DNA of 29,667 nucleotides from Flavobacteriaceae bacterium UBA3179 (GTDB lineage: Bacteria; Bacteroidota; Bacteroidia; Flavobacteriales; Flavobacteriaceae). This document shows, in pieces, positions 506 through 19,183 of the stretch. The stretch's first letter is position 1; every line of letters begins with the position of its first letter. The stretch spans positions 148,129 to 177,795 of the forward strand of contig DEXR01000050.1 in NCBI GenBank assembly GCA_002364245.1, given 5' to 3'. The translations under genes were made by a program, and so were the position numbers. The notes under the pieces were generated by a model that was not told the origin of the DNA, ran no database searches, and saw only the letters and a list, made by a program, of their open reading frames with translations.

Positions 506-2866
506 ATGAAACGAATAAGCACCGTTCTTTCCCTCTTGATCATCTTAGGATTGATCTACTATTCTTTTTATAGCTTGATGCCCAGAAAAGGCACTTCAAA
601 AAATATTGCAAAAACCGAATTTTCAACCGAACGCGCACTTGAAAAACTTCAGAATATAGCTCAAAAACCACATTATCACGGTTCGCGAGAACACGGAAAT
701 GTTAAAAATTATCTAACTGCTGAGTTAGAAAAGTTAGGGTTACAAACACAGACCCAAGAGGGATTTGTTTATAGTACACAAAGTAGAACCATGAACCGTC
801 CTATAAATATTGTAGCTAGTATGGAAGGAACTGGAAGTGGCAAAGCTCTTTTATTGCTTTCGCACTACGATAGTGCGTTGGTTCCATCACCTGGAGCTAG
901 CGATGCCGGTAGTGGTATTGTAACAATTTTAGAAACGCTACGTGCTTATAAAGCTAGTGAGAAAAAGCCTAAAAATGATATCATTATACTCTTTACCGAT
1001 GCTGAAGAAATTGGCCTGGATGGCGCCAAGCTTTTTGTAAATGAACATCCTTGGGCAGATGATGTAGGACTCGTACTCAATTTTGAAGCCCGCGGAAGTG
1101 GTGGTCCCAGCAATATGATTTTGGAAACCAACGGTGGAAACGAAAAATTAGTTAAAGCTTTTATTGAAGCAAACCCTGACTACCCTGTTGCTTCATCTTT
1201 AATGTACAGCGTTTATAAAATGTTGCCAAATGATACGGATTCTACCATATTTAGAGAAGACGGCGATATTCCCAGTTATTTTTTCGCTTTTATAGACGAT
1301 CATTTTGACTATCATACTGCCAACGATACCATTGAAAACCTAGATATAGAAACATTACAGCATCAAGGAAGTTATCTCTTACCGTTACTGCACTATTTTG
1401 CCGATGCCGATTTAACGAACTTAAAATCTGATGAAGAATATGTGTACGTAAACTTTCCTTTTTTAAAAATGATCTCATTTCCATTCTTGTGGATCTTACC
1501 TTTATTGTTGGTCGCCACTGTCTTATTTGGAATTCTTATTTTCTACGGTTTCAAAAAAGAAAAGATAACAGGTAAAGGAATTGCCAAAGGTTTCGTCCCA
1601 TTTTTATTGTCATTGGTTATTTGTGGGGTTATCGGTTTTTTTGGATGGAAATTGCTGCTTGCCATCTACCCACAATACAACGAAGTACAACACGGATTTA
1701 AATATAATGGACACGCTTATGTGGCATTTTTCGTGTTTCTTACTCTTTCCATTACGTTCTATTTTTACAGGCGATTTGCAAACAGACAGCAAGTGGCCTC
1801 AATTTATGTGGCACCACTTATTTTTTGGATTCTTGTAAATGTAGCTGTATTTGTAATTTTAAAAGGTGCCGCCTATTTTATAATACCTGTTTTCTTTGGA
1901 TTAGTATCATTTTGGGTGCTTATAAAACAAAAGAAACCCAATTTAATATTGATGGCTTTATTGGCTGCACCCGCCCTGTTTTTCTTTTCACCACTTATTC
2001 AGTTTTTTCCAGTTGGTTTGGGGTCAGAAATGGTCGTGATAAGTTGTGTGTTTACTGTTTTGTTATTTGGTTTATTGTTACCTGTATTTGGTTTTTATAG
2101 TTGGAAAAAAATGCTTTCTATTCTTTGCTTTCTGTTTGCATTTGGATTTTTCATCAAAGCACATTTAACGAGTAATTTTTCTGAAACCCGCCAAAAACCC
2201 AACAGTTTAGTCTTTTATCAAGATGCCGATACTGAAAAGTCGTATTGGCTTACCTACGATAACATTTTAGATGATTGGTCCAGAGGGTATTTAGGAGAAA
2301 ACCCTACTGAAGTCCCTTCAGAAATATTAAGTGCCTCGGGCAGTAAATACAGTACCGGATATACATATGCTGCAAAAGCACCTAAAAAAAATATCGCCCC
2401 TTTTGAAATTATTCTGAAGAAAGACACAATTATAAATAACCTAAAAAAAATAACGTTTACCATTGCCCCAAAGCGAAACATCAACCAATTAAATTTGTAC
2501 GCAAATACAGAAGCTACATTTAACTCACTTTCGTTTAATGGTCAAGAAGCTTTGAAGGACAGCACGGGTTTAGTGTACGGACATAGAACTAATGAGCTGT
2601 TGCTTCGGTATTGGGTGAACAACAATGACTCGCTAGAGGTTTCATATACAACCGAAATGAAGGATGCAATATCATTTACAGCTTTAGAATTTTCGTATGA
2701 TTTAATGGAAAATGAAAAATTCAGTATTAGTAAACGTCCCAAAGACATGATGCCAAAACCTTTTGTAGTTACCGATGCAGTAGCGATAAAACACAGTTTC
2801 ATTCCTGAAAATCTACCCAAAAAAGAACAAGATTCAATACAAACCTTACCTGAAAAAGTACAATAA
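506..2866 (+). CDS. Membrane-anchored M28-family zinc exopeptidase
   Basis: A 786-aa protein with an N-terminal membrane anchor (residues about 5-25), a peptidase domain (about 40-310), a bundle of hydrophobic segments (about 325-590) and a soluble C-terminal domain (about 600-786). Candidate di-zinc M28 residues are visible: H120 (SHYDS), D133 (ASDAGSG), the acidic pair E167-E168 (DAEEIGLDGA), E194 (NFEARG) and H270 (DYHTANDT). Family members release N-terminal amino acids, with the catalytic domain outside the cytoplasmic membrane. The multi-TM architecture resembles eukaryotic Fxna/ERMP1-type M28 enzymes and their Bacteroidota relatives. The next gene follows 3 bp after the stop, suggesting cotranscription. 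Substrate unknown. Confidence 0.9.
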   Translation: MKRISTVLSLLIILGLIYYSFYSLMPRKGTSKNIAKTEFSTERALEKLQNIAQKPHYHGSREHGNVKNYLTAELEKLGLQTQTQEGFVYSTQSRTMNRPINIVASMEGTGSGKALLLLSHYDSALVPSPGASDAGSGIVTILETLRAYKASEKKPKNDIIILFTDAEEIGLDGAKLFVNEHPWADDVGLVLNFEARGSGGPSNMILETNGGNEKLVKAFIEANPDYPVASSLMYSVYKMLPNDTDSTIFREDGDIPSYFFAFIDDHFDYHTANDTIENLDIETLQHQGSYLLPLLHYFADADLTNLKSDEEYVYVNFPFLKMISFPFLWILPLLLVATVLFGILIFYGFKKEKITGKGIAKGFVPFLLSLVICGVIGFFGWKLLLAIYPQYNEVQHGFKYNGHAYVAFFVFLTLSITFYFYRRFANRQQVASIYVAPLIFWILVNVAVFVILKGAAYFIIPVFFGLVSFWVLIKQKKPNLILMALLAAPALFFFSPLIQFFPVGLGSEMVVISCVFTVLLFGLLLPVFGFYSWKKMLSILCFLFAFGFFIKAHLTSNFSETRQKPNSLVFYQDADTEKSYWLTYDNILDDWSRGYLGENPTEVPSEILSASGSKYSTGYTYAAKAPKKNIAPFEIILKKDTIINNLKKITFTIAPKRNINQLNLYANTEATFNSLSFNGQEALKDSTGLVYGHRTNELLLRYWVNNNDSLEVSYTTEMKDAISFTALEFSYDLMENEKFSISKRPKDMMPKPFVVTDAVAIKHSFIPENLPKKEQDSIQTLPEKVQ

Positions 2867-2869
2867 TAT

Positions 2870-3676
2870 ATGATTGAAACAATAGCAATTGCAGGCTTAG
2901 GTTGGTTAGGTTACCCTTTTTCCAGACATCTACAAAGCTTAGGATTTCAAGTTAAAGGTTCTGTTACGAGCATTGAAAAAGCAGGAACTATGCAACGTAA
3001 TGGAATACAAGCTTTTCCTGTTGAAATTTCAGAAAATGGAGTATCTGGTGAAATTGATGCACTTTTAAAAGATGTAAATTGTTTAGTTATTATGATTCCA
3101 CCAGGTTTACGAAAAAATACGGGTGCAGATCACGTTGCTAAAATGACTCATTTTTTGGCCGAAATAGAAAAGAATTCGGTGCCAAAAGTAATTTTAGTAA
3201 GCAGTACTTCTGTTTATAGTGATAAACAAGGTACAGTAAATGAGAAAGATATTCCTATTGCCGAAAATGATGCTGCTAGACAGTTAATTGAAGTAGAAAA
3301 ACTATTTTTTACTTCTGAAACATTACAAACCACAATCGTTCGCTTTGGAGGCTTAGTAGGTGGAAAACGGCAACCCGTACGTTATCTAGCTGGTAGAAAA
3401 GGATTAAACAATGGTAATGCACCTGTTAATCTCATCCACAGAGAAGATTGTATCGGGATTCTTTCAGAAATTATAAAACAAGATGCGTTTGGGCATATTT
3501 TTAATGCTGTGCCGCCTTTTCATCCTACAAAAAAGGACTATTATACCCAAAAAGCAAAAGAGTTAAACTTAGAGCCACCATCTTATTCTGAAGAAAAAGA
3601 AAACACCGTTTATAAAAAAGTAACCTCAACTAATATTTCAAAAGTATTAGGGTATACTTTTAAACAGCAACCTTAA
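2870..3676 (+). CDS. NAD(P)-dependent epimerase/dehydratase-like protein (YeeZ type)
   Basis: A 268-aa Rossmann-fold protein. The dinucleotide-binding start is seen at residues 5-30 (IAIAGLGWLGYPFSRHL), followed by a KGSVTS stretch at the usual cofactor-selecting position. VILVSSTSVYSD near residue 110 is the SDR-type strand with Ser/Thr and Tyr, and RFGGLVGG with HREDCIG is typical of the extended-SDR/YeeZ group. The usual YxxxK catalytic pair is not obvious, so activity as a classical epimerase is uncertain. It starts 3 bp after the peptidase stop codon. Substrate not inferable. Confidence 0.8.
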   Translation: MIETIAIAGLGWLGYPFSRHLQSLGFQVKGSVTSIEKAGTMQRNGIQAFPVEISENGVSGEIDALLKDVNCLVIMIPPGLRKNTGADHVAKMTHFLAEIEKNSVPKVILVSSTSVYSDKQGTVNEKDIPIAENDAARQLIEVEKLFFTSETLQTTIVRFGGLVGGKRQPVRYLAGRKGLNNGNAPVNLIHREDCIGILSEIIKQDAFGHIFNAVPPFHPTKKDYYTQKAKELNLEPPSYSEEKENTVYKKVTSTNISKVLGYTFKQQP

Positions 3677-3750
3677 CAATTTTGTAATTTTTTGAATGTT
3701 AAGCCAATATGTTTTTTCACTATCTTTAAATAAACAAAAAACTTACCATT

Positions 3751-4110
3751 ATGAACACAAAAGAAATTGCAGAAAACCTAGTAAATTGGTGTAATAGCGA
3801 TCAAGAAGAACGCTGTTATCAAGAATTGTACAGTCCAAATATTGTAAGTATTGAACCTACTGGTGATAACCCTGTAACTAATGGAATGGATGAAGTTGCT
3901 AAAAAAGGAGAATGGTGGCAAGAAAATTTCGAAGTACACAGCCGCCATACTAGCGAACCCATTGTAGCAGACAACTGGTTTAGTGTCCGTCACGAAATGG
4001 ACACCACCCATAAACCGAGTGGACAGCGCAGCCAAATGTCAGAAATTGGTGTTTACGAAGTTAAAGATGGGAAAATTGTGAAAGAGCAGTTTTTTTACGA
4101 TCAAGAGTAA
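3751..4110 (+). CDS. SnoaL/NTF2-like domain protein
   Basis: A 119-aa single-domain protein with the look of small SnoaL-like (NTF2 fold) polypeptides: an N-terminal helix pair (MNTKEIAENLVNWCN), EELYSPNIVSIEPTG-like cone-opening segments, a central WWQENFEVHSR and the terminal strands IGVYEVKDGKIVKEQFFYD, which is the characteristic C-terminal hairpin of the family. Such proteins are isomerases/cyclases or simply ligand-binding modules, so no reaction can be assigned. It lies 74 bp after the upstream stop and is followed by a strong inverted repeat. Confidence 0.75.
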   Translation: MNTKEIAENLVNWCNSDQEERCYQELYSPNIVSIEPTGDNPVTNGMDEVAKKGEWWQENFEVHSRHTSEPIVADNWFSVRHEMDTTHKPSGQRSQMSEIGVYEVKDGKIVKEQFFYDQE

Positions 4111-4113
4111 CTT

Positions 4114-4166
4114 CTAAAGATTTCAGTACAATCCTAAATATCATTGAATTGTACTGAAATCTTTAG
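4114..4166. terminator. Bidirectional terminator-like perfect 19-bp inverted repeat
   Basis: The arms 4114-4132 and 4148-4166 are perfectly complementary over 19 bp, with a 15-nt loop. The element sits between the convergent stops of the SnoaL-like gene (4110) and the thioesterase (4172). Each side is followed by short T-rich sequence. Position and symmetry fit a transcription terminator for both converging units. Confidence 0.8.
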
Positions 4167-4171
4167 TTATT

Positions 4172-4651
4172 TTATTCCTCTAAGTCTTCTGGAAATTGCC
4201 CGTGCATACGTGTATCCTCTTTAGTCAAGATTTTAAAGTCATCGGTTTTATCTATTCCATCTAAGAAACTGTAAAACTCTTCAGGTAACGGGACCAGTTT
4301 TCGTTCTCTAAGATCGATCCAAGCACCTAACATTTCGCAGCGACCTAAGTTTCGTCCTTTATGATCATAAAAATTGTGTCGGAACTCGAAAAAAGTTCCT
4401 TTTTCCGAAAGACCTTTTAATTGCAGGGAAACACGTAACGGTTTGCCTGGAAATGCTTCCTTAAAATAATACATCCGTTCGTATAATGCGACCGGACCAA
4501 GGTTCATTTCGGCTAAATGTTGTTGCCCAAACCCTTTTGAACCAAAATAACTCATTCGAGTGTGGCTCATAAAGTCTATATAGGCACTATTGCGTAAATG
4601 ACGGTTGGCGTCCACGTCGGACCATCGAATTTCAAATTCTTTTATGTACAT
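4172..4651 (-). CDS. Acyl-CoA thioesterase, 4HBT hotdog family
   Basis: A 159-aa single hotdog domain. The N-terminus (IRWSDVDANRHLRNSAYIDF) is the 4-hydroxybenzoyl-CoA thioesterase/YbgC signature, with the catalytic-type Asp in SDVDANRHLRN and then the long hotdog helix (SAYIDFMSHTRMSYF). Such enzymes hydrolyse acyl-CoA or acyl-ACP thioesters in the cytoplasm. It overlaps the upstream hydrolase gene by 10 nt (4642-4651), so the two are translationally coupled in a TetR-controlled minus-strand operon, consistent with a role in fatty acyl or aromatic acyl-CoA turnover. The exact acyl substrate cannot be read from sequence. Confidence 0.85.
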   Translation of the reverse strand: MYIKEFEIRWSDVDANRHLRNSAYIDFMSHTRMSYFGSKGFGQQHLAEMNLGPVALYERMYYFKEAFPGKPLRVSLQLKGLSEKGTFFEFRHNFYDHKGRNLGRCEMLGAWIDLRERKLVPLPEEFYSFLDGIDKTDDFKILTKEDTRMHGQFPEDLEE

Positions 4652-5505
4652 AGTTCTTCTTTATTTTTATGTGTATTTGTAATATGGTTTATAATGGTTA
4701 CAACTGTTTCTGTTTTGGTAAGATTATGATCTTGACCTGTTGTAAACCACGCTTTAATATTGTTTGTGCTGTTTTCAGCAGCTTTTTTTATTTCTGAAAC
4801 CGGCGTAACGGCATCAGATTCTTCATGAACGATAAAAACAGGTTCTTCCACTTGTTTAAAAAAATTACCTAAATTCAGATTTGAAGCTGGAATTTTCAAC
4901 ACCGAATCTACTTTGATTCCCAAATTATCAATGGTTCTGTTTGAAAGTTGAAGTGTATCCTTAAAAAATCCGAAAATAGCATCCATCCCAGACGGAGCTC
5001 CCATAATTACGTAATCTTTAACGGGAATTTCTTTATTTGCTAAAAAAGTATAAGCCCCTACCAAACTTCCTAACGAATGACATATTAAATGATCCACTCC
5101 GCCAATTTTAAGAATAATATCTTCGGTGGCTTTACGGTACATTTCAATATTCATCACTTTCCCCTTGGAAAGACCGTGTGCTGGTGCATCTAATGAGTAG
5201 ATTGAATATTCTGAAGTATCTAATTTATCTATATAAGGCTGCCATCTTTTTGAGTGGCTCATCCAACCGTGTAAAAAAAGTATTTTTTTGGACCCATCAC
5301 CCCATTTATGCACCGCAATTGAAGCTTGAGGCACTTCAATGTAAGATGTTTCAGCAGTACTAAAAAAATCGTAACCTTCTTTTGAAATAGGTACAGGCTG
5401 CACTTTGCACAACAATTTAAATGCCTGCTCCCTATTCAGTTTAGGGAATAAAGGTGCTGTTACGTTTAAGTATTTTCCTGTTAATTTGGTAAGTAACTTT
5501 TTCAT
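4642..5505 (-). CDS. Alpha/beta hydrolase
   Basis: A 287-aa alpha/beta-hydrolase. Visible motifs are the oxyanion loop HGWMSHSKRW (about residue 78), the nucleophile elbow CHSLGS (about residue 143; Cys replaces the usual Gly before His-Ser), the acidic-residue region EESDAVTPVSE near residue 230 and the catalytic His in TGQDHNLTK near residue 260. Probably a cytoplasmic esterase or thioesterase-like enzyme. It begins 9 bp after the TetR gene stop and overlaps the thioesterase by 10 nt, so the three genes form one operon that the TetR protein probably controls. Confidence 0.85.
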   Translation of the reverse strand: MKKLLTKLTGKYLNVTAPLFPKLNREQAFKLLCKVQPVPISKEGYDFFSTAETSYIEVPQASIAVHKWGDGSKKILFLHGWMSHSKRWQPYIDKLDTSEYSIYSLDAPAHGLSKGKVMNIEMYRKATEDIILKIGGVDHLICHSLGSLVGAYTFLANKEIPVKDYVIMGAPSGMDAIFGFFKDTLQLSNRTIDNLGIKVDSVLKIPASNLNLGNFFKQVEEPVFIVHEESDAVTPVSEIKKAAENSTNNIKAWFTTGQDHNLTKTETVVTIINHITNTHKNKEELCT

Positions 5506-5514
5506 AGGGAGCTT

Positions 5515-6105
5515 TTAGATTGAAATTTCAGCTACTATATTTCGCAAATGAGCAATGGTATATGTAATTGCTTTTTTATCTCGTTGTAAACGGCTCATCA
5601 TTATCCCACCTTCTAGTGTAGCAATAAATATGGTGCTATAAAAATCTACATCTGTATCAGATTTCACTTGGTTATTCTTAATGCCGTTCTTGATTAACGT
5701 AGACACCGCATCTTTAAATTGTTGTAACATAGCGCAGGCTTGTTCGCGTAAAACTGGATTTGCATCGTCTGCTTCTACAGCTGCATTCATTACGGGGCAA
5801 CCGCCTTCATATAAAGGTGTATTCATATAATTTTCAAAAAAAGAAAAGATCGCTTCGATTTTAGTTCTGAAATTCTTGGCCTCTTTAATAGTAGTCCCTA
5901 TCTCACGAAACATGACTTTAGACAATCGTTGCAATGCATGCTTTTCTAGATCGCCTTTGTTCTCAAAATGCCTGTAAATTGCTCCTTTGGTTAAGCCTGT
6001 CGCTTTGGTAATATCACTAATGGAAGTCGCCTTGTAACCCTGTGTATTAAACAAGTTTGCACTTTCATTAATGATCGTGTTTTTTGTTGCCTGCGCATTT
6101 CTCAT
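5515..6105 (-). CDS. TetR/AcrR-family transcriptional regulator
   Basis: A 196-aa regulator. Residues about 8-55 form the TetR helix-turn-helix (ESANLFNTQGYKATSISD, then TGLTKGAIYRHFENKGDLEKH). The remaining helical part would form the ligand-binding/dimer domain, including PLYEGGCPVMNAAVEADD, common in the TetR_C/YcdC-like group. It is first in a minus-strand operon with the hydrolase and thioesterase. A perfect palindrome overlapping its promoter (6112-6131) supports autorepression, probably relieved by a small ligand such as an acyl compound (inference). The start codon coincides with the expected transcription start, so the mRNA may be leaderless. Confidence 0.9.
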   Translation of the reverse strand: MRNAQATKNTIINESANLFNTQGYKATSISDITKATGLTKGAIYRHFENKGDLEKHALQRLSKVMFREIGTTIKEAKNFRTKIEAIFSFFENYMNTPLYEGGCPVMNAAVEADDANPVLREQACAMLQQFKDAVSTLIKNGIKNNQVKSDTDVDFYSTIFIATLEGGIMMSRLQRDKKAITYTIAHLRNIVAEISI

Positions 6106-6109
6106 ATCA

Positions 6110-6140
6110 CAAAGATACCGATTGGTATCTTAAATACAAA
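6110..6140 (-). promoter_or_regulatory. Promoter of the TetR operon (minus strand)
   Basis: On the minus strand a perfect Bacteroidota -7 box, TATCTTTG, lies at 6117-6110 and a -33 TTTG at 6140-6137, separated by 19 bp. Transcription should start at about 6105, the first base of the TetR start codon. Confidence 0.65.
6112..6131. promoter_or_regulatory. Palindromic TetR operator
   Basis: AAGATACC-GATT-GGTATCTT is a perfect 8-bp inverted repeat with a 4-bp centre. Its length and GATACCGAT-like core are typical of TetR/AcrR operators. It occupies the space between the -33 and -7 elements of the minus-strand promoter, so binding would block RNA polymerase. It is 47 bp from the plus-strand box of the divergent yheT-like gene, which may also be affected. 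Confidence 0.75.
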
Positions 6141-6177
6141 AAAGCACACATACATTAACTACAAATTAAGAATTGGG

Positions 6178-6185
6178 TACTTTTG
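6178..6185 (+). promoter_or_regulatory. -7 box for the YheT-like gene
   Basis: TACTTTTG matches TAnnTTTG and lies 20 bp before the preferred ATG at 6206. No convincing -33 TTTG is seen at the expected spacing. Its position makes the longer reading start (6173) unlikely because transcription would begin after it. Confidence 0.5.
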
Positions 6186-6205
6186 TAATTAAAACGAGCC
6201 TATTT

Positions 6206-7168
6206 ATGCCACTAATTGAATCTACTTATTCCCCTAGCGGTATTTTTAAAAACGAGCATGTTGCTACAATTTATTCGGCTAAGTTGCGCCCTGTTCCTAA
6301 AATAAAGCAGCATCGTGAACGCTTAGATCTTGAAGATGGTGATTTTTTAGATATTGATTTTTCCTTTGCAAAAAATAAAGCTTCAAAAGTGGCAATTATT
6401 CTGCACGGGTTAGAAGGAAATGCACAGCGCCGTTACATAAAAGGGCAAGCAAAAAGTTTAACCAAAGAAGGCTGGGATGCCGTAGCTGTTAATTTTAGGG
6501 GGTGTAGTGGCGAACCAAACAAGTTGTTTTCTTCATACAATGCCGGAAAAACAGAAGATTTACAAGCCGTTGTGGATTTTCTTCTGAAGAAAGAAACGTA
6601 CAATACCATGTCATTAATTGGTTTCAGTTTAGGGGGAAATTTAATGCTGAAATATTTAGGTGAACGAAACACACTTCCTAAGGAAATAGAAAGAGCCGTT
6701 GCCATTTCAACACCTTTAAATTTAAAGGGAACATTAGAATCGCTTTCAAATTTTGATAACTGGGTGTATCGAACTTCCTTTTTACACAACCTTCGAAAGA
6801 AATTAAAAATCAAAGTGCAACAATTCCCTGAAAAAATGAGCGCTTCAGATTTAAAGCAGGTAAAATCTTTACTGGATTTTGACAATTTATACACTGCCCC
6901 ATCACACGGTTTTAAAGATGCTTACGATTATTACAAGCAAAATAGTAGTGGTCAATTTTTACCCAATATTAGTATTCCGGTATTGATTTTAAATGCTAAA
7001 AACGATTCATTTTTAACCGAAGAAAGCTATCCCTATTCATTTGCAGAAAATTCTGAAAATATTTATTTAGAAACCCCTGAGTATGGTGGTCATGTGGGTT
7101 TCCATCAAACAAATGCAACATATTACAGCGAAAAAAAAGCGACTTCTTTTCTAAATAGCGATAAGTAA
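6206..7168 (+). CDS. YheT-type alpha/beta hydrolase
   Basis: A 320-aa hydrolase of the YheT/ABHD1-3 group. The N-terminus PLIESTYSPSGIFKNEHVAT and the IYSAKLRP stretch are typical. Motifs seen are HGLEGNAQRRYIKG (oxyanion), GFSLGGNLMLKYLG (nucleophile Ser), NAKNDSFL (Asp) and YGGHVGF (His). Family members are membrane-associated or cytosolic esterases of poorly known substrate. An in-frame ATG at 6173 would give 11 extra residues, but the -7 box at 6178 and family length favour 6206. Divergent from the TetR operon. Confidence 0.85.
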   Translation: MPLIESTYSPSGIFKNEHVATIYSAKLRPVPKIKQHRERLDLEDGDFLDIDFSFAKNKASKVAIILHGLEGNAQRRYIKGQAKSLTKEGWDAVAVNFRGCSGEPNKLFSSYNAGKTEDLQAVVDFLLKKETYNTMSLIGFSLGGNLMLKYLGERNTLPKEIERAVAISTPLNLKGTLESLSNFDNWVYRTSFLHNLRKKLKIKVQQFPEKMSASDLKQVKSLLDFDNLYTAPSHGFKDAYDYYKQNSSGQFLPNISIPVLILNAKNDSFLTEESYPYSFAENSENIYLETPEYGGHVGFHQTNATYYSEKKATSFLNSDK

Positions 7169-7221
7169 TATAAAAATGAGTCAGCAGGCTTTAATTGCTA
7201 AGCTACTATATTCTAATTTAC

Positions 7222-7229
7222 TACCTTTG
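7222..7229 (+). promoter_or_regulatory. -7 box of the yicC-gmk-nadD operon
   Basis: TACCTTTG matches TAnnTTTG 20 bp upstream of the yicC ATG at 7249. A TTG at 7195-7197 could be the -33 element, although the 24-bp gap is somewhat long. Confidence 0.5.
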
Positions 7230-7248
7230 CAACCATTAAATTGAAAAT

Positions 7249-8106
7249 ATGATTCAGTCGATGACCGGTTATGGCAAAAGCTTGGTGCAATTGCCTTCCA
7301 AAAAAATTACGGTTGAAATAAAATCGTTAAACAGTAAAAACCTTGACGTAAATGCGAGGGTTCCTTCAGCTTATCGTGAAAAGGAATTAGATATTCGTAA
7401 ACGTATTTCGAAATCTCTTTCTCGTGGAAAAGTAGATTTCAACCTTTATGTTGAGCAAACTGGTGAGGAAACCTCTACCGTCATCAACGAAGCAGCTGTT
7501 AAACAATACATGAAGCAATTGGCTCATATCACCGATGGCAATCCGGTAGAACTGATGAAAATGGCGGTTCGTTTTCCCGACGCGTTACAAACAGAACGCG
7601 ACGAAATTGATGAAACGGAATACAACAAAATAATTGAAGCGGTTGACGAAGCATTACAGTCCATCAACCAATATCGTACCGATGAAGGAAAAGCATTGGA
7701 AGCCGATTTTCAGAAACGAATTACTAATATTTCTACTTTATTAGATGAAGTTATGAAGCTCGATCCACAACGCATGGACAATGTAAAGGAGCGATTGGCA
7801 AAAGCTGTAAGCGATTTAAAAGAAACGGTTGACGAAAATCGTTTTGAGCAAGAACTGGTCTATTACCTTGAAAAGTACGATATCACCGAAGAGCAAGTGC
7901 GTTTAAGCAACCACCTTTCTTATTTTTCTGAAACGTTACAAAGCAAAACCAGTAATGGTAAAAAGTTAGGATTTATCTCTCAAGAAATTGGCCGCGAAAT
8001 TAATACCATTGGTAGTAAGGCTAATTTTGCTCCTATGCAACAAGTCGTAGTTCAAATGAAAGATGAACTGGAAAAAATTAAAGAACAAGCTTTAAATGTA
8101 TTGTAA
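7249..8106 (+). CDS. yicC: YicC-family endoribonuclease
   Basis: A 285-aa protein with both diagnostic ends of the YicC family: the N-terminal MIQSMTGYGKS and the C-terminal LGFISQEIGREINTIGSKAN followed by a helical tail. Family length is about 290 aa, so it is complete. In other bacteria YicC is an endoribonuclease involved in small-RNA turnover and stress/stationary phase growth. Its stop and the gmk start share one base (TAATG), giving translational coupling, and yicC-gmk adjacency is widely conserved. Confidence 0.93.
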   Translation: MIQSMTGYGKSLVQLPSKKITVEIKSLNSKNLDVNARVPSAYREKELDIRKRISKSLSRGKVDFNLYVEQTGEETSTVINEAAVKQYMKQLAHITDGNPVELMKMAVRFPDALQTERDEIDETEYNKIIEAVDEALQSINQYRTDEGKALEADFQKRITNISTLLDEVMKLDPQRMDNVKERLAKAVSDLKETVDENRFEQELVYYLEKYDITEEQVRLSNHLSYFSETLQSKTSNGKKLGFISQEIGREINTIGSKANFAPMQQVVVQMKDELEKIKEQALNVL

Positions 8107-8705
8107 TGGAAGGAGGGAAATTATTTGTTTTTTCGGCACCGTCTGGAAGCGGTAAAACAACCATTGTTCAATATTTGCTTGCTCAAGAAGAATTAAATTT
8201 AGACTTCTCAATCTCATGTACTTCCAGAGAACCAAGAGGTGATGAGGAGCACGGTAAAGACTACTATTTTATCAGTTTAAAAGACTTTAAACAACACATT
8301 AAAAACGGTGATTTTTTAGAGTGGGAAGAAGTATATCGCGATAACTTCTACGGAACATTAAAGTCTGAAGTAGAACGCATTTGGGCACAAGGTAAAAACG
8401 TGATTTTTGATATAGACGTTGTTGGCGGACTGCGAATTAAAAAGAAATATCCTGAGAAAACTTTGGCTGTTTTTGTGAAGCCACCAAGTGTGGATGAACT
8501 AAAGCGAAGGCTTAAAAAACGAAAAACTGAAAGTGATGAGCGTATTAATATGCGTATTGCAAAAGCTTCAGTAGAACTAGCGACGGCTCCACAATTTGAC
8601 TATATTATTAAAAACAACGATTTAGATACCGCATTGAATGAAGCGAAAGAACTAGTGACAGGTTTCATAAAAAACGGTCATCCAGAAAAAGAAGAAGAAG
8701 AGTAA
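8106..8705 (+). CDS. gmk: Guanylate kinase
   Basis: A 199-aa P-loop kinase converting GMP and ATP to GDP and ADP in purine nucleotide synthesis. The P-loop is APSGSGKTT at residues 11-19. The GMP-binding segment SCTSREPRGDEEHGKDYYF (about 38-56) and DFLEWEEVYRDNFYGT are classic for Gmk, as are VIFDIDVVGG and the arginine-rich lid RRLKKRKTESDERINMR. Length matches the family. It overlaps yicC by one base and abuts nadD with no gap. Confidence 0.96.
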   Translation: MEGGKLFVFSAPSGSGKTTIVQYLLAQEELNLDFSISCTSREPRGDEEHGKDYYFISLKDFKQHIKNGDFLEWEEVYRDNFYGTLKSEVERIWAQGKNVIFDIDVVGGLRIKKKYPEKTLAVFVKPPSVDELKRRLKKRKTESDERINMRIAKASVELATAPQFDYIIKNNDLDTALNEAKELVTGFIKNGHPEKEEEE

Positions 8706-9296
8706 ATGATTTCGTCAAAAAAAATAGGGCTTTACTTTGGCACCTTTAACCCCATTCATGTGGGTCATCTCATAATTGCCAACCACTTAGTTGAAAATAG
8801 TGATTTAGATGAAATCTGGCTAGTAGTAACGCCACATAATCCACATAAAAAAAAGAAAACGCTGCTTGAAGACCATCACCGTTTGGCTATGGTGCGTATT
8901 GCATTGGAAGACTATCCAAAACTAAAAGCCAGCAATATTGAGTTTGATCTCCCACAGCCCAATTATACGACCAACACATTAGCACATTTAGAGGAAAAAT
9001 ATCCTGAAAAGTCATTTTCCTTAATAATGGGAGAAGACAACTTAAAGAGTTTTCATAAATGGAAAAACTATGAAGTTATTTTAGACCGTTATTCCATTTA
9101 TGTATACCCTAGAATTTCCGAAGGAACTATTGAAACTCAATTTGATGGTCACCCTAAAATTACAAAAGTAGACGCCCCAATTATGGAACTCTCTTCCACT
9201 TTTATAAGAAAAGGGATACAATCGGGTATGAATATTCGTCCTATGTTACCGCATAACGTCTGGAAGTATCTAGATGAAATGAATTTTTATAAATAG
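8706..9296 (+). CDS. nadD: Nicotinate-nucleotide adenylyltransferase
   Basis: A 196-aa enzyme joining ATP and nicotinate mononucleotide to give deamido-NAD in NAD biosynthesis. The nucleotidyltransferase signature GLYFGTFNPIHVGHLIIA (residues 8-25) has the phosphate-binding GTFNPIHxGH, and the second motif LSSTFIRKGI (about residue 164) matches the ISSTxIR loop. Its ATG directly follows the gmk stop (TAA-ATG). It is the last gene of the yicC-gmk-nadD operon. Confidence 0.95.
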   Translation: MISSKKIGLYFGTFNPIHVGHLIIANHLVENSDLDEIWLVVTPHNPHKKKKTLLEDHHRLAMVRIALEDYPKLKASNIEFDLPQPNYTTNTLAHLEEKYPEKSFSLIMGEDNLKSFHKWKNYEVILDRYSIYVYPRISEGTIETQFDGHPKITKVDAPIMELSSTFIRKGIQSGMNIRPMLPHNVWKYLDEMNFYK

Positions 9297-17464: not shown

Positions 17465-18124
17465 ATGGAAACCGCAACAAAAGAAAAAATGGACATCAGC
17501 AAACTATCTGCTGAAGAGTTACAAGCCGAGCTAAAACGCCGCGAAGAGACCGAAAAAAAGCAACGCCTTAAAGCCCGAAACGATTTTAATAAGGACAAAG
17601 AGGATTTTACGCTGCATGCAGCTTCAAAATTTAAGAGCCTACAAAAAGAGTTGGCCGAGCTAAAAGAATACACCATTCGTGAAGCGAATAAGCTGTACGA
17701 ACGTATGTATTTAATCAATGACAAAGAGCCAAAAGAAACCAAGAGCTTCAGCTTAAAAAATGAAGCTGACAATATAAAAGTGACCGTAGATCGTCAAGAG
17801 AAATTCGAGTTTACCGAAGAGGCAACGGTACATATTGGTGCTATAAAAGACATCTTTAAAGAGAAGTTTGAAGACCGCAACAAAGGGATGTACAAGATTA
17901 TGGACAACCTTTTGGTAAAAGGCTCAAAAAAGGAATACGACCCCAAACTATTGGCAAAAGCACGCCAAGCCGTTCGCGAGTTGGGCGATGATAAACTAAT
18001 GGCCGAGTTTGACAAACTCGAAGATTGCCAACGCGTAGTGGGTACTTCATTATACTGCCGTCTCTACGTTCGCGATGACAAACAAAAATGGCAGGATGTT
18101 TCACTTCAATTTTCAAGCTTATGA
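17465..18124 (+). CDS. DUF3164-family phage protein
   Basis: A 219-aa protein resembling the DUF3164 family found in the early region of Mu-like phages: a charged coiled-coil first half (KEDFTLHAASKFKSLQKELA, LKEYTIREANKLYERM), a middle FSLKNEADNIKVTVDRQEKF strand region, and a helical C-terminal half ending RVVGTSLYCRLYVRDDKQKW. Database copies are sometimes mislabelled as sulfate transporters; nothing here is membrane-spanning. Role unknown, possibly DNA binding. ATGA overlap with the next gene. Confidence 0.7.
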   Translation: METATKEKMDISKLSAEELQAELKRREETEKKQRLKARNDFNKDKEDFTLHAASKFKSLQKELAELKEYTIREANKLYERMYLINDKEPKETKSFSLKNEADNIKVTVDRQEKFEFTEEATVHIGAIKDIFKEKFEDRNKGMYKIMDNLLVKGSKKEYDPKLLAKARQAVRELGDDKLMAEFDKLEDCQRVVGTSLYCRLYVRDDKQKWQDVSLQFSSL

Positions 18125-18348
18125 GCCATAGAGAAAACCAAATAGCTGCAGATCAAGCAGCATCCGTAAAATATCACAGTGTAGCAACGCCCAGTGTAAC
18201 CATCTCGCAACCGCAAGATGATCAATATTTGGTAAACGGCAAGCTGTTGTATTTAGACAGCAACAATAAATGGATCACAACCGATGAGCTTACGTATAAA
18301 GAACGGCAAGCCTTCCGGAAAGAATTGCACAATGCAAAAGATGGGTAG
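18121..18348 (+). CDS. Hypothetical phage protein, 75 aa
   Basis: Starts at the ATG that overlaps the DUF3164 stop (ATGA); an earlier in-frame ATG at 18088 is less likely. Gln/Asp/Ser-rich first half (NQIAADQAASVKYHSVATP), then NGKLLYLDSNNKWITTDE and a basic helix. It is the last gene before the structured RNA block. Confidence 0.65.
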   Translation: MSHRENQIAADQAASVKYHSVATPSVTISQPQDDQYLVNGKLLYLDSNNKWITTDELTYKERQAFRKELHNAKDG

Positions 18349-18376
18349 CATCTCATTACCTGCGCCTGGCAAAAAA

Positions 18377-18567
18377 ACAGTTTAGACTGTAGGGAGCAGT
18401 AACACGCTGTAATGTGGTTACTACCGTTCCGCCCACCTTAATTAATGGGATAATTTAACGGTAGTTTCAAAAAAGATGGAGTGATGCTTAAAGGAAACAA
18501 CTCTTAATTACAGAAACGCCGTTGGCCACTACGATAGTGTGGCAGAAACTTCCGGGCAATCCCGGAA
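18377..18567 (+). ncRNA. Candidate structured RNA: five hairpins upstream of a tRNA-like element
   Basis: Within a 412-bp gap (18349-18760) these inverted repeats occur in tandem: ACAGT-TTAG-ACTGT (18377-18390); AGTAAC/GTTACT (18398-18403, 18417-18422); ACTACCGTT/AACGGTAGT (18420-18428, 18457-18465), enclosing CCCA/TGGG (18432-18435, 18446-18449); GCCACTA-CGA-TAGTG(T)GGC (18525-18543, one bulge); and TTCCGGG-CAAT-CCCGGAA (18550-18567). The second and third share 18420-18422 and so are mutually exclusive. No sensible ORF explains the region. It may be a stand-alone phage RNA or the processed leader of the tRNA-like element and of the gemA-like gene; the class is not known to me. Confidence 0.4.
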
Positions 18568-18573
18568 AGTCTC

Positions 18574-18680
18574 GACCGGGTGGCGAAATTGGTAAACGCG
18601 ATATGCACTCCTGGCTATTGAAACTGGTAGAACAGGAAAACGTACGAGGTTTCTTGCAGGTTCGAGTCCTGCCCCGGTCA
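18574..18680 (+). tRNA. tRNA-like element, class II-like (Leu-type D-arm), probably degenerate
   Basis: Acceptor arms GACCGGG (18574-18580) and CCCGGTC (18673-18679) pair over 7 bp. T8 follows, then a D-arm GCG...CGC (18583-18599) with a GG in the loop at the G18-G19 place. The T-arm GCAGG-TTCGAGT-CCTGC (18656-18672) is perfect and abuts the acceptor. The part between D- and T-arms is 56 nt, too long for a normal tRNA. It can form ATA(T)GC/GCTAT around a 7-nt loop ACTCCTG and then a large 34-nt variable hairpin (GAAACT/GGTTTC). Position 33 would be C, not T, and the apparent anticodon is uncertain. No CCA is encoded. Could be a decayed phage tRNA or a tRNA mimic. Confidence 0.5.
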
Positions 18681-18760
18681 CTAAATATGCATAAATGGTA
18701 TTTATACCTATTAAATAGCATAAAATCTAATGGTTAACATCTAATGTCTAACGTCTAATT

Positions 18761-19183
18761 ATGAAAGCAACCAAGTACCAAAAAAAACTGATCCACATGA
18801 ACGCGCCCAATCGCGATACAAAAGAAGAGTACGTGCAATGGGCAACTGGCGATGTGAGCAAAATAAGCTGCAACGATCTCAACTTTGAGCAAGCAAACGC
18901 AATAATCGAAAAACTTGGCAAACGTCCGGTAAAAGCCTTTAAAGAAGACACGCCCATGTATTGGGCATATTTTGACCGCTTTAACGGCCAACACAAATAC
19001 ATACAAAGCCTGTTGCATCAAGTAGGTTGGACAATGCCAAACACCAAATACGGACGTGTACCCGATCTACCACGCTTTGGCAATTGGTTGCAAAGCGATA
19101 AAAGCCCTGTAAACAAACCATTAAAAAAAATGAACCCAACCGAGTGCAGTAAAATAGTCGCTGCACTGGAAGGAATGTTATAA
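18761..19183 (+). CDS. GemA/Mu gp16-like regulatory protein
   Basis: A 140-aa protein with the layout of the phage GemA/gp16 (DUF1018) family: an N-terminal KATKYQKKLIHMNAPNRDTK like the RRKLYAKIHIAKKQL of relatives, a central NFEQANAIIEKLGKRPVKAF matching the LDAVLDEFKRLGF segment, and a C-terminal region ending NPTECSKIVAALEGML like the ALxxWL helix. In Mu, GemA affects host gene expression and DNA supercoiling. Preceded by the structured RNA block. Confidence 0.65.
   Translation: MKATKYQKKLIHMNAPNRDTKEEYVQWATGDVSKISCNDLNFEQANAIIEKLGKRPVKAFKEDTPMYWAYFDRFNGQHKYIQSLLHQVGWTMPNTKYGRVPDLPRFGNWLQSDKSPVNKPLKKMNPTECSKIVAALEGML

Follow-up and report, generated by a model that had tools for sequence, protein, structure and literature searches.

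A tRNA-like element in a gene gap of a Mu-like Flavobacteriaceae prophage is one of many tRNA-like tags spread across virus operons

What is the role of a block of several hundred nucleotides devoid of genes within the early operon of a prophage? The question is raised by a DNA stretch of 29,667 nucleotides from Flavobacteriaceae bacterium UBA3179, hereafter named the window. The prophage that it carries is Mu-like, with a transposase (phrog_310), a DNA transposition protein (phrog_296) and a Mu-type portal, and the block lies inside its early operon on the + strand. Upstream are a DUF3164 gene (17465-18124, +; Pfam PF11363, 27.9 bits with a cut-off of 23.7; phrog_846) and, 3' of it, a small ORF (18088-18348, +) known from the ORF listing and devoid of Pfam match, whose end abuts the block. 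Downstream is a GemA-like gene (18761-19183, +) assigned to phrog_286 (E 5.5e-5), a family of unknown function in PHROG. Its product has no Pfam match of its own, but among the relatives of the protein one carries PF06252, the GemA family, and another is named phage gp16-like. An earlier note on this DNA had described the block as lacking a sensible ORF, and this held true: the 412 nt between the flanking ORFs correspond exactly to positions 18349-18760 (+) and contain only ORFs of at most 77 aa. The block consists of a structured 5' domain, a tRNA-like domain and the AT-rich leader of the GemA-like gene (18681-18760, +). A direct search of phages with the block DNA gave no match, and a search of 99 genomes returned the genome of origin and three short matches of 25-32 letters. 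A fast Rfam search of the whole window at gathering scores yielded nothing, including no GOLLD or ROOL. A stretch of the leader (18735-18759, TAACATCTAATGTCTAACGTCTAAT) was also found in a related bacterial genome (L004), with 96% over 25 nt.

The five hairpins of the earlier note were all found, between 18377 and 18569 of the + strand. Hairpin H1 (18377-18390) has a 5-bp stem, and hairpin H2 (18398-18422) pairs 18398-18403 with 18417-18422 at pair probabilities of 0.97-1.0. The third one is an alternative helix that excludes H2, pairing 18420-18428 with 18457-18465 (9 of 9 pairs); it was the only one of the five returned by an inverted-repeat search with arms of at least 8. Hairpin C (18526-18542) is closed over TACGATA, and hairpin E (18549-18569) stands immediately 5' of the tRNA-like domain. 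The minimum-energy fold also contains a helix between 18456-18468 and 18513-18524 around a small hairpin (18479-18503), and a further possible helix between 18407-18413 and 18507-18513 was drawn by hand after related RNAs, with the energy not in its favour. Taken singly, the short hairpins of the block are within chance. The entire stretch 18370-18685 has a lower folding energy (-98.1 kcal/mol) than any of 100 dinucleotide shuffles, whose mean is -80.5 kcal/mol (z -3.7).

The sharing of 18420-18422 by two competing stems, which we could verify for the second and third hairpin, had led to the proposal of an attenuator or riboregulator with mutually exclusive stems. The best fold has an energy of -54.6 kcal/mol versus -47.0 kcal/mol with the 18420-18465 helix enforced, and the probability of this helix rounds to 0 in the single-sequence ensemble. 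No terminator-like site (GC hairpin followed by a T run) is listed in 18300-18800. With the two folds 7.6 kcal/mol apart and no such site, the idea of a switch is weakly supported; an attenuator-type reading of the block is unlikely, and we give the riboregulator proposal as a whole very little credence. The earlier interpretation is thus retained for a structured stretch with a tRNA-like element, but not for the attenuator-type switch. The evidence points to a probable cis-acting tRNA-processing signal rather than to a riboregulator.

The tRNA-like fold suspected at the end of the structured stretch is present at 18574-18680 (+), hereafter named the tag. It scores 41.2 bits to RF00005 (gathering score 29) in a sensitive search of 501 bases, is absent from the fast whole-window listing and ranks 19th of the 20 tRNA-model matches in its own genome. 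Its anatomy is that of a tRNA in the acceptor stem, whose 5' strand (18574-18580) forms 7 of 7 pairs with 18673-18679, in the D arm (18583-18599, GG in the loop), which has the look of a tRNA-Leu, and in the T arm (18656-18672, 5 of 5 pairs, loop TTCGAGT). The discriminator A is followed by CTA (18680-18683), as behind host tRNAs, so that a C stands directly behind it. An irregular hairpin (18609-18637) replaces the anticodon arm: no 5-bp anticodon stem with a 7-nt loop is found there, and ARAGORN without introns finds no tRNA. With introns allowed, ARAGORN proposes a tRNA-Phe(gaa) with an 11-nt intron at the tag; neither this mode nor the tmRNA mode yielded a tRNA or tmRNA that was convincing. 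Among the traits of RNase P substrates, the tag has the 12-bp acceptor/T stack, the T loop and the D-loop GG, and at its 3' end ACTA in place of RCCA. Since 21 of 200 shuffles fold as well as or better than the tRNA-like part alone, its support comes from sequence and comparison and not from energy. A 7-bp acceptor combined with a 5-bp T arm and a C behind the discriminator is seen a single time in the window and never in 100 shuffles of 2-base blocks, both strands being scanned. The same rule finds no such element in Mu, in line with the earlier note, which knew of none at this place in Mu. Between the end of the tag and the start codon of the GemA-like gene there are 80 nt, a greater distance than in most tags described below.

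To compare the locus, 52 loci were collected through relatives of the GemA-like protein and 59 more through relatives of DUF3164 and a Pfam search, giving a total of 111 in which the window phage is counted twice and some phages were fetched via both genes. When the 52 GemA loci, near-duplicates among them, were scanned for T arms, 37 were located in the 1.2 kb 5' of GemA; beyond these there were one on the + strand and two on the minus strand. In 20 of these 52 loci, again with near-duplicates, no arm precedes GemA; in L012, L013 and L016 the place of the tag is occupied by other small ORFs or short spacers. Over all 111 loci, a tRNA-type T arm is present on the + strand in 50 (57 arms, 45 distinct), and the mark is therefore dispensable, as 61 loci lack it. 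In each of the 45 distinct arms the discriminator is immediately followed by a C when two spacings are allowed for, an outcome with a chance expectation of about 44%. The same C was found in 43 of 43 distinct host tRNAs, taken from three genomes of the genus or family of the window (loci L070-L117; the T-arm rule dropped none), most commonly as CAA (21) or CTA (9), CCA being encoded in only 4 of the 43 genes. The tags therefore carry the 3' signal that marks the tRNAs of their hosts.

In the Mu-like loci, 27 of 44 tags end 8-30 nt before an ATG. The acceptor and the T arm stay paired in relatives while the anticodon region varies freely; the segment between them is hypervariable and can be as short as about 11 nt or exceed 120 nt, with large inserts in L020, L034 and L049. 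ARAGORN assigned four-base anticodons to the tags of L032 (2033-2107), L033 (2913-2986) and L039 (2241-2314), and the tag of L050 (2008-2086) has a C-rich anticodon region; these four tags are reminiscent of frameshift-suppressor tRNAs. By eye, a G/T-rich leader like GTTAGGTTAATTGGT stands immediately 5' of the tag in L030, L032, L033, L039, L050, L052 and L056, phages that lack the upstream RNA described below. Non-canonical tRNA-like domains with acceptors like that of the window were also seen in six viral contigs (L185, L188, L191, L210, L215 and L218), several of them 3' of a GACAGCCGGGAAAGACCGGC hairpin. Among viral contigs there is a second copy of the window phage; being identical across 6657 nt, it is uninformative for comparison.

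The RNA 5' of the tag was well aligned in five relatives, from which a covariance model (R1) was built. R1 matches L025, L026, L047 and L019 with E values between 2.5e-11 and 1.8e-6. It next matched L151 (E 4e-9) and Peternella_1, a phage in culture (E 2.5e-8). In an alignment of eleven upstream RNAs, which was fitted to the model and leans towards it, 91.3% of the cells are paired and two-sided changes occur in 19 of 22 pairs; the covariation score is 0.794, versus 0.194 after shuffling and at most 0.136 after sliding. A second model (R2) matches L139 with E 6.2e-5; this phage is closely related to that of the window, with 73% in DUF3164. R2 has eight further matches with E values of 0.12-1.8, of which those in L175, L049 and L034 directly precede a tag; since the other five do not, these three are suggestive only. 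R2 misses further tRNA-like loci of the GACCGG type. No Rfam family for the upstream RNA was found in the 18 loci searched.

The earlier note had made compensatory changes in homologous prophages a touchstone of its structured RNA. Related phages do show such changes in RNAs found at the corresponding position, and the 5' domain of the window shows no statistically significant membership in this covarying family. Against R1, this domain scores 6.5 bits where the match is expected (E 0.021 in 501 nt, the best of 12), which is not significant; against R2 it scores 3.8 bits, 16th of 53 in 4 kb, and is unlisted at E 2. Enforcing the family fold on it costs 12.8 kcal/mol. Given these scores and this cost, the window RNA is alike in plan and position and not a proven family member. 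In Peternella_1 and L151, the upstream RNA is present and the tag absent, so the RNA does not need a tag in every case. The Peternella_1 RNA is an unannotated covarying RNA located between genes 10 and 11 (L179, 4826-4985). Each of the two RNAs finishes with a long hairpin, and by eye a run of five T comes after it in Peternella_1 only. We considered this hairpin as a terminator, but the terminator scan, which has a loop limit, does not list it, and it was dropped as evidence for an alternative 3' end. Among bacterial genomes, R1 gave 5 matches in 395 genomes of the order (E up to 0.1). R2 gave 4 in 397 family genomes (E up to 0.01); by eye, the neighbouring ORFs are unlike phage genes, and these matches were attributed to chance.

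Comparison with known systems places the block near several of them. RAGATH-36 (RF03104), found in phages, shares with the window a hairpin with ACTACGANAGT located 5' of a tRNA and a comparable order of parts. The hairpin at 18526-18542 matches the RAGATH-36 terminal hairpin; the tRNAs behind RAGATH-36 are ordinary, whereas the downstream element in the window is merely tRNA-like. The window scores 17.7 bits (E 0.27), below the gathering score of 70, and therefore resembles RAGATH-36 in plan but fails the score. Counterparts of hairpin C precede the tRNA-like domain in L139, L019 and L034, and counterparts of the RAGATH-36 type precede tRNAs in L005, L007 and L009, the last being above the RAGATH-36 threshold (70.6 bits). 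A scan of viral contigs with the hairpin pattern matched six, i.e. the phage of the window and five contigs with tRNA arrays (three nearly alike), in which the hairpin precedes an ordinary tRNA; a scan of genome contigs gave 0. The pattern also matched in L014 and L015, which were dropped as the other parts are missing around it.

GOLLD and ROOL are likewise structured phage RNAs near tRNAs, and tRNAs lie at times inside GOLLD, according to PMC12286853. They differ from the block by their much larger size and their true tRNAs, and the window has no Rfam match to either. A tRNA-like domain without anticodon arm recalls tmRNA, in which the extra RNA lies inside the acceptor stem, whereas in the window it precedes that stem; ARAGORN found no tmRNA in the window.

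The tags are not confined to this large form. A short form of about 42 nt consists of a 5-bp acceptor, an 11-nt loop with GGC, a 6-bp T stem, the discriminator and a C. It occurs in gene gaps of Bacteroidota phages, Streptomyces phages, a mycobacteriophage and a haloarchaeal virus. Large and short tags have in common the stacked acceptor/T arm, an elbow formed by GG with TTCRA, and a C that follows the discriminator, all of them features that RNase P and tRNA 3' processing recognise. In 11 short tags, 121 of 121 cells are paired, where the pairing of the T stem was partly used to find the arms and the acceptor was picked by pairing at a fixed distance. Two-sided changes occur in 8 of 11 pairs, and the covariation score of these 11 sequences is 0.866 versus at most 0.144 after sliding. 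A pattern scan of viral contigs returned 110 stretches, and the 80 that were examined contain 101 matches, 79 of them distinct. The acceptor is paired at 5 of 5 positions in 78 of the 79 and the T stem at 6 of 6 in 78, the pattern having left the 5' acceptor and four T pairs unconstrained. Short tags begin 2-15 nt behind a stop codon in 60 of the 79 cases, and G+C is at least 55% in 57 of the 80 stretches. With one element of the Streptomyces phage Endor1 as query, 189 phage records gave matches at E values up to 1, some of them weak, mainly from Streptomyces (113), Mycobacterium (30), Halorubrum (19) and Gordonia (10); among the matches listed (40), 37 have no annotated feature underneath. 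A phage search with one short Bacteroidota element gave no match. A model of the short form (R3) had one match in 296 Bacteroidota genomes, which lies inside an ORF and was discarded as chance.

Single phages, among them the actinobacteriophages Endor1, Joe and Thumb with their series of unannotated short tags, give a picture of the arrangement. Endor1 (L329) carries nine at 797-5909 in the 25.7 kb read, 9 of 9 in gaps. None arises in 20 shuffles of 2-base blocks of Endor1, and from locus position 1254 to 5957 a short tag is present in 8 of 8 same-strand gaps of at least 80 nt. Joe (L331) has seven by the strict rule (43055-47337), all between annotated genes. When gaps of Endor1 and Joe are matched by gene order and size, the element is kept while stem pairs are changed on both sides. 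Thumb (L334) has eight in 18 kb, located at 2728-9042, none on a gene. They occupy 8 of its 15 gaps of at least 80 nt. In the haloarchaeal tailed virus HRTV-8 (L335), one short tag lies in a gap (2500-2540) of the 5 kb that were read. The strict rule finds none in Mu, Peternella_1 and phiC31. An unannotated perfect tRNA-type T arm was seen in phiC31 (L330) at 31486, in the gap between genes 13 and 14.

The window element is one member of a set of tRNA-like tags that is widely spread among virus operons. The best explanation, which we hold to be probable from the sequence comparisons, is that the block acts as a processing cassette in the early phage transcript, with host tRNA-processing enzymes cutting at the tags. 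The tag appears to have kept the processing cues, namely the 12-pair acceptor/T-arm stack, the D-loop GG with the T-loop TTCGA and the discriminator with its C, and to have lost the decoding parts. Host RNase P would cut before 18574 and give a defined 3' end to the structured RNA (about 18370-18570), and the enzyme that matures tRNA 3' ends, either RNase Z or an exonuclease, would cleave behind 18680, creating a fresh 5' leader for the GemA-like transcript. Cutting at tags would thereby trim the upstream message or RNA and leave the next gene a short open leader. What the sequences show is the tRNA-like anatomy of the tag, its repeated presence in gene gaps, the covariation among relatives and a 3' signal of host type; we infer that the tags are cut, by which enzymes and to what advantage, as well as any role for the RNA upstream. 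As the mark, often of about 42 nt, divides many neighbouring genes in other phages, it can be regarded as operon punctuation. In mitochondrial transcripts, tRNAs located between genes are cut out and the mRNAs are thereby freed (tRNA punctuation). The virus tags differ in not being working tRNAs and can be as short as 42 nt.

According to PMC11143913, RNase P cleaves hairpins made only of acceptor, T stem and T loop (the AT1 model), and the phage RNAs M3 and C4 are RNase P substrates. The likeness to the tags is that an acceptor/T-arm stack suffices and that phage RNAs can be cut; AT1, C4 and M3 are synthetic or single cases and not a repeated gap mark, and cleavage of the tags would be an extension from them. 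The same source, treating T4, states that RNase P prefers CCA, and CCA is not encoded in the window tag (A-CTA), which counts against processing; it is absent from most of the host tRNA genes as well. Also weighing against processing are the 61 loci that have no arm, the 80-nt distance of the window tag from its start codon, and the upstream RNAs of Peternella_1 and L151, which have no tag. The D arm and the large inserts in L020, L034 and L049 also exceed the needs of a cut site.

One rival is a tag acting in trans, as a decoy or stand-in tRNA that is excised, receives CCA, is perhaps charged with leucine or serine and titrates host defence nucleases or other tRNA-binding proteins. The leucine and serine synthetases do not read the anticodon. 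The tag has A73, the D arms of L034, L048 and L049, like that of the window, look tRNA-Leu-like, the tags of some relatives look tRNA-Ser-like, and the middle part is hypervariable in the style of an arms race. The short forms, however, have neither D stem nor anticodon arm, and similar copies stand in successive gaps; a cis mark therefore fits better, and we regard the decoy as unlikely. The tRNA-Phe(gaa) with its 11-nt intron proposed by ARAGORN would fit a tRNA gene in decay or a tRNA interrupted by a short intron. Decay would strike all parts, but relatives keep the acceptor/T-arm pairing and leave the anticodon region free, and the four-base anticodons that ARAGORN gives for L032, L033 and L039 also speak against this reading, which is barely credible.

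The position of 60 of the 79 short tags just behind stop codons would also be expected of a transcription terminator or an mRNA 3'-end stabiliser that uses the tRNA-like stack by chance, and the actinophage elements could be terminators instead. Peternella_1 has, by eye, its long hairpin and five T at the place of the tag, but the terminator scan lists none in this phage, the similar hairpin of L151 has no T run, and the window block has no terminator-like site. A terminator or stabiliser would not need the conserved T loop, the D-loop GGC and the C behind the discriminator, and terminators in eight gaps of one Endor1 operon should leave its downstream genes short of transcripts. We consider this explanation improbable as well, a little more so than the decoy, and retain processing at the tags as the preferred one.

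On a wider scale, we propose tentatively, with somewhat less than even confidence, that many tailed viruses whose hosts are Bacteroidota, Actinobacteria or haloarchaea use tRNA-like tags as punctuation in polycistronic messages and borrow the tRNA processing of the host to release the messages of single genes. The tag would mostly be a 42-nt acceptor/T-arm minihelix, and the window would hold a large member ending a structured RNA. Literature searches returned no report of such tags; most subscription journals were outside their scope, and we claim no priority. ARAGORN skips most tags, and gene finders see the gaps as empty. Should the proposal hold, bacterial and archaeal viruses would possess a code for cutting messages that genome annotation overlooks. 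Gaps in well-studied phages would then be explained, RNA-processing studies would gain a compact target, and the prediction would be testable in cultured phages by existing transcript-end methods.
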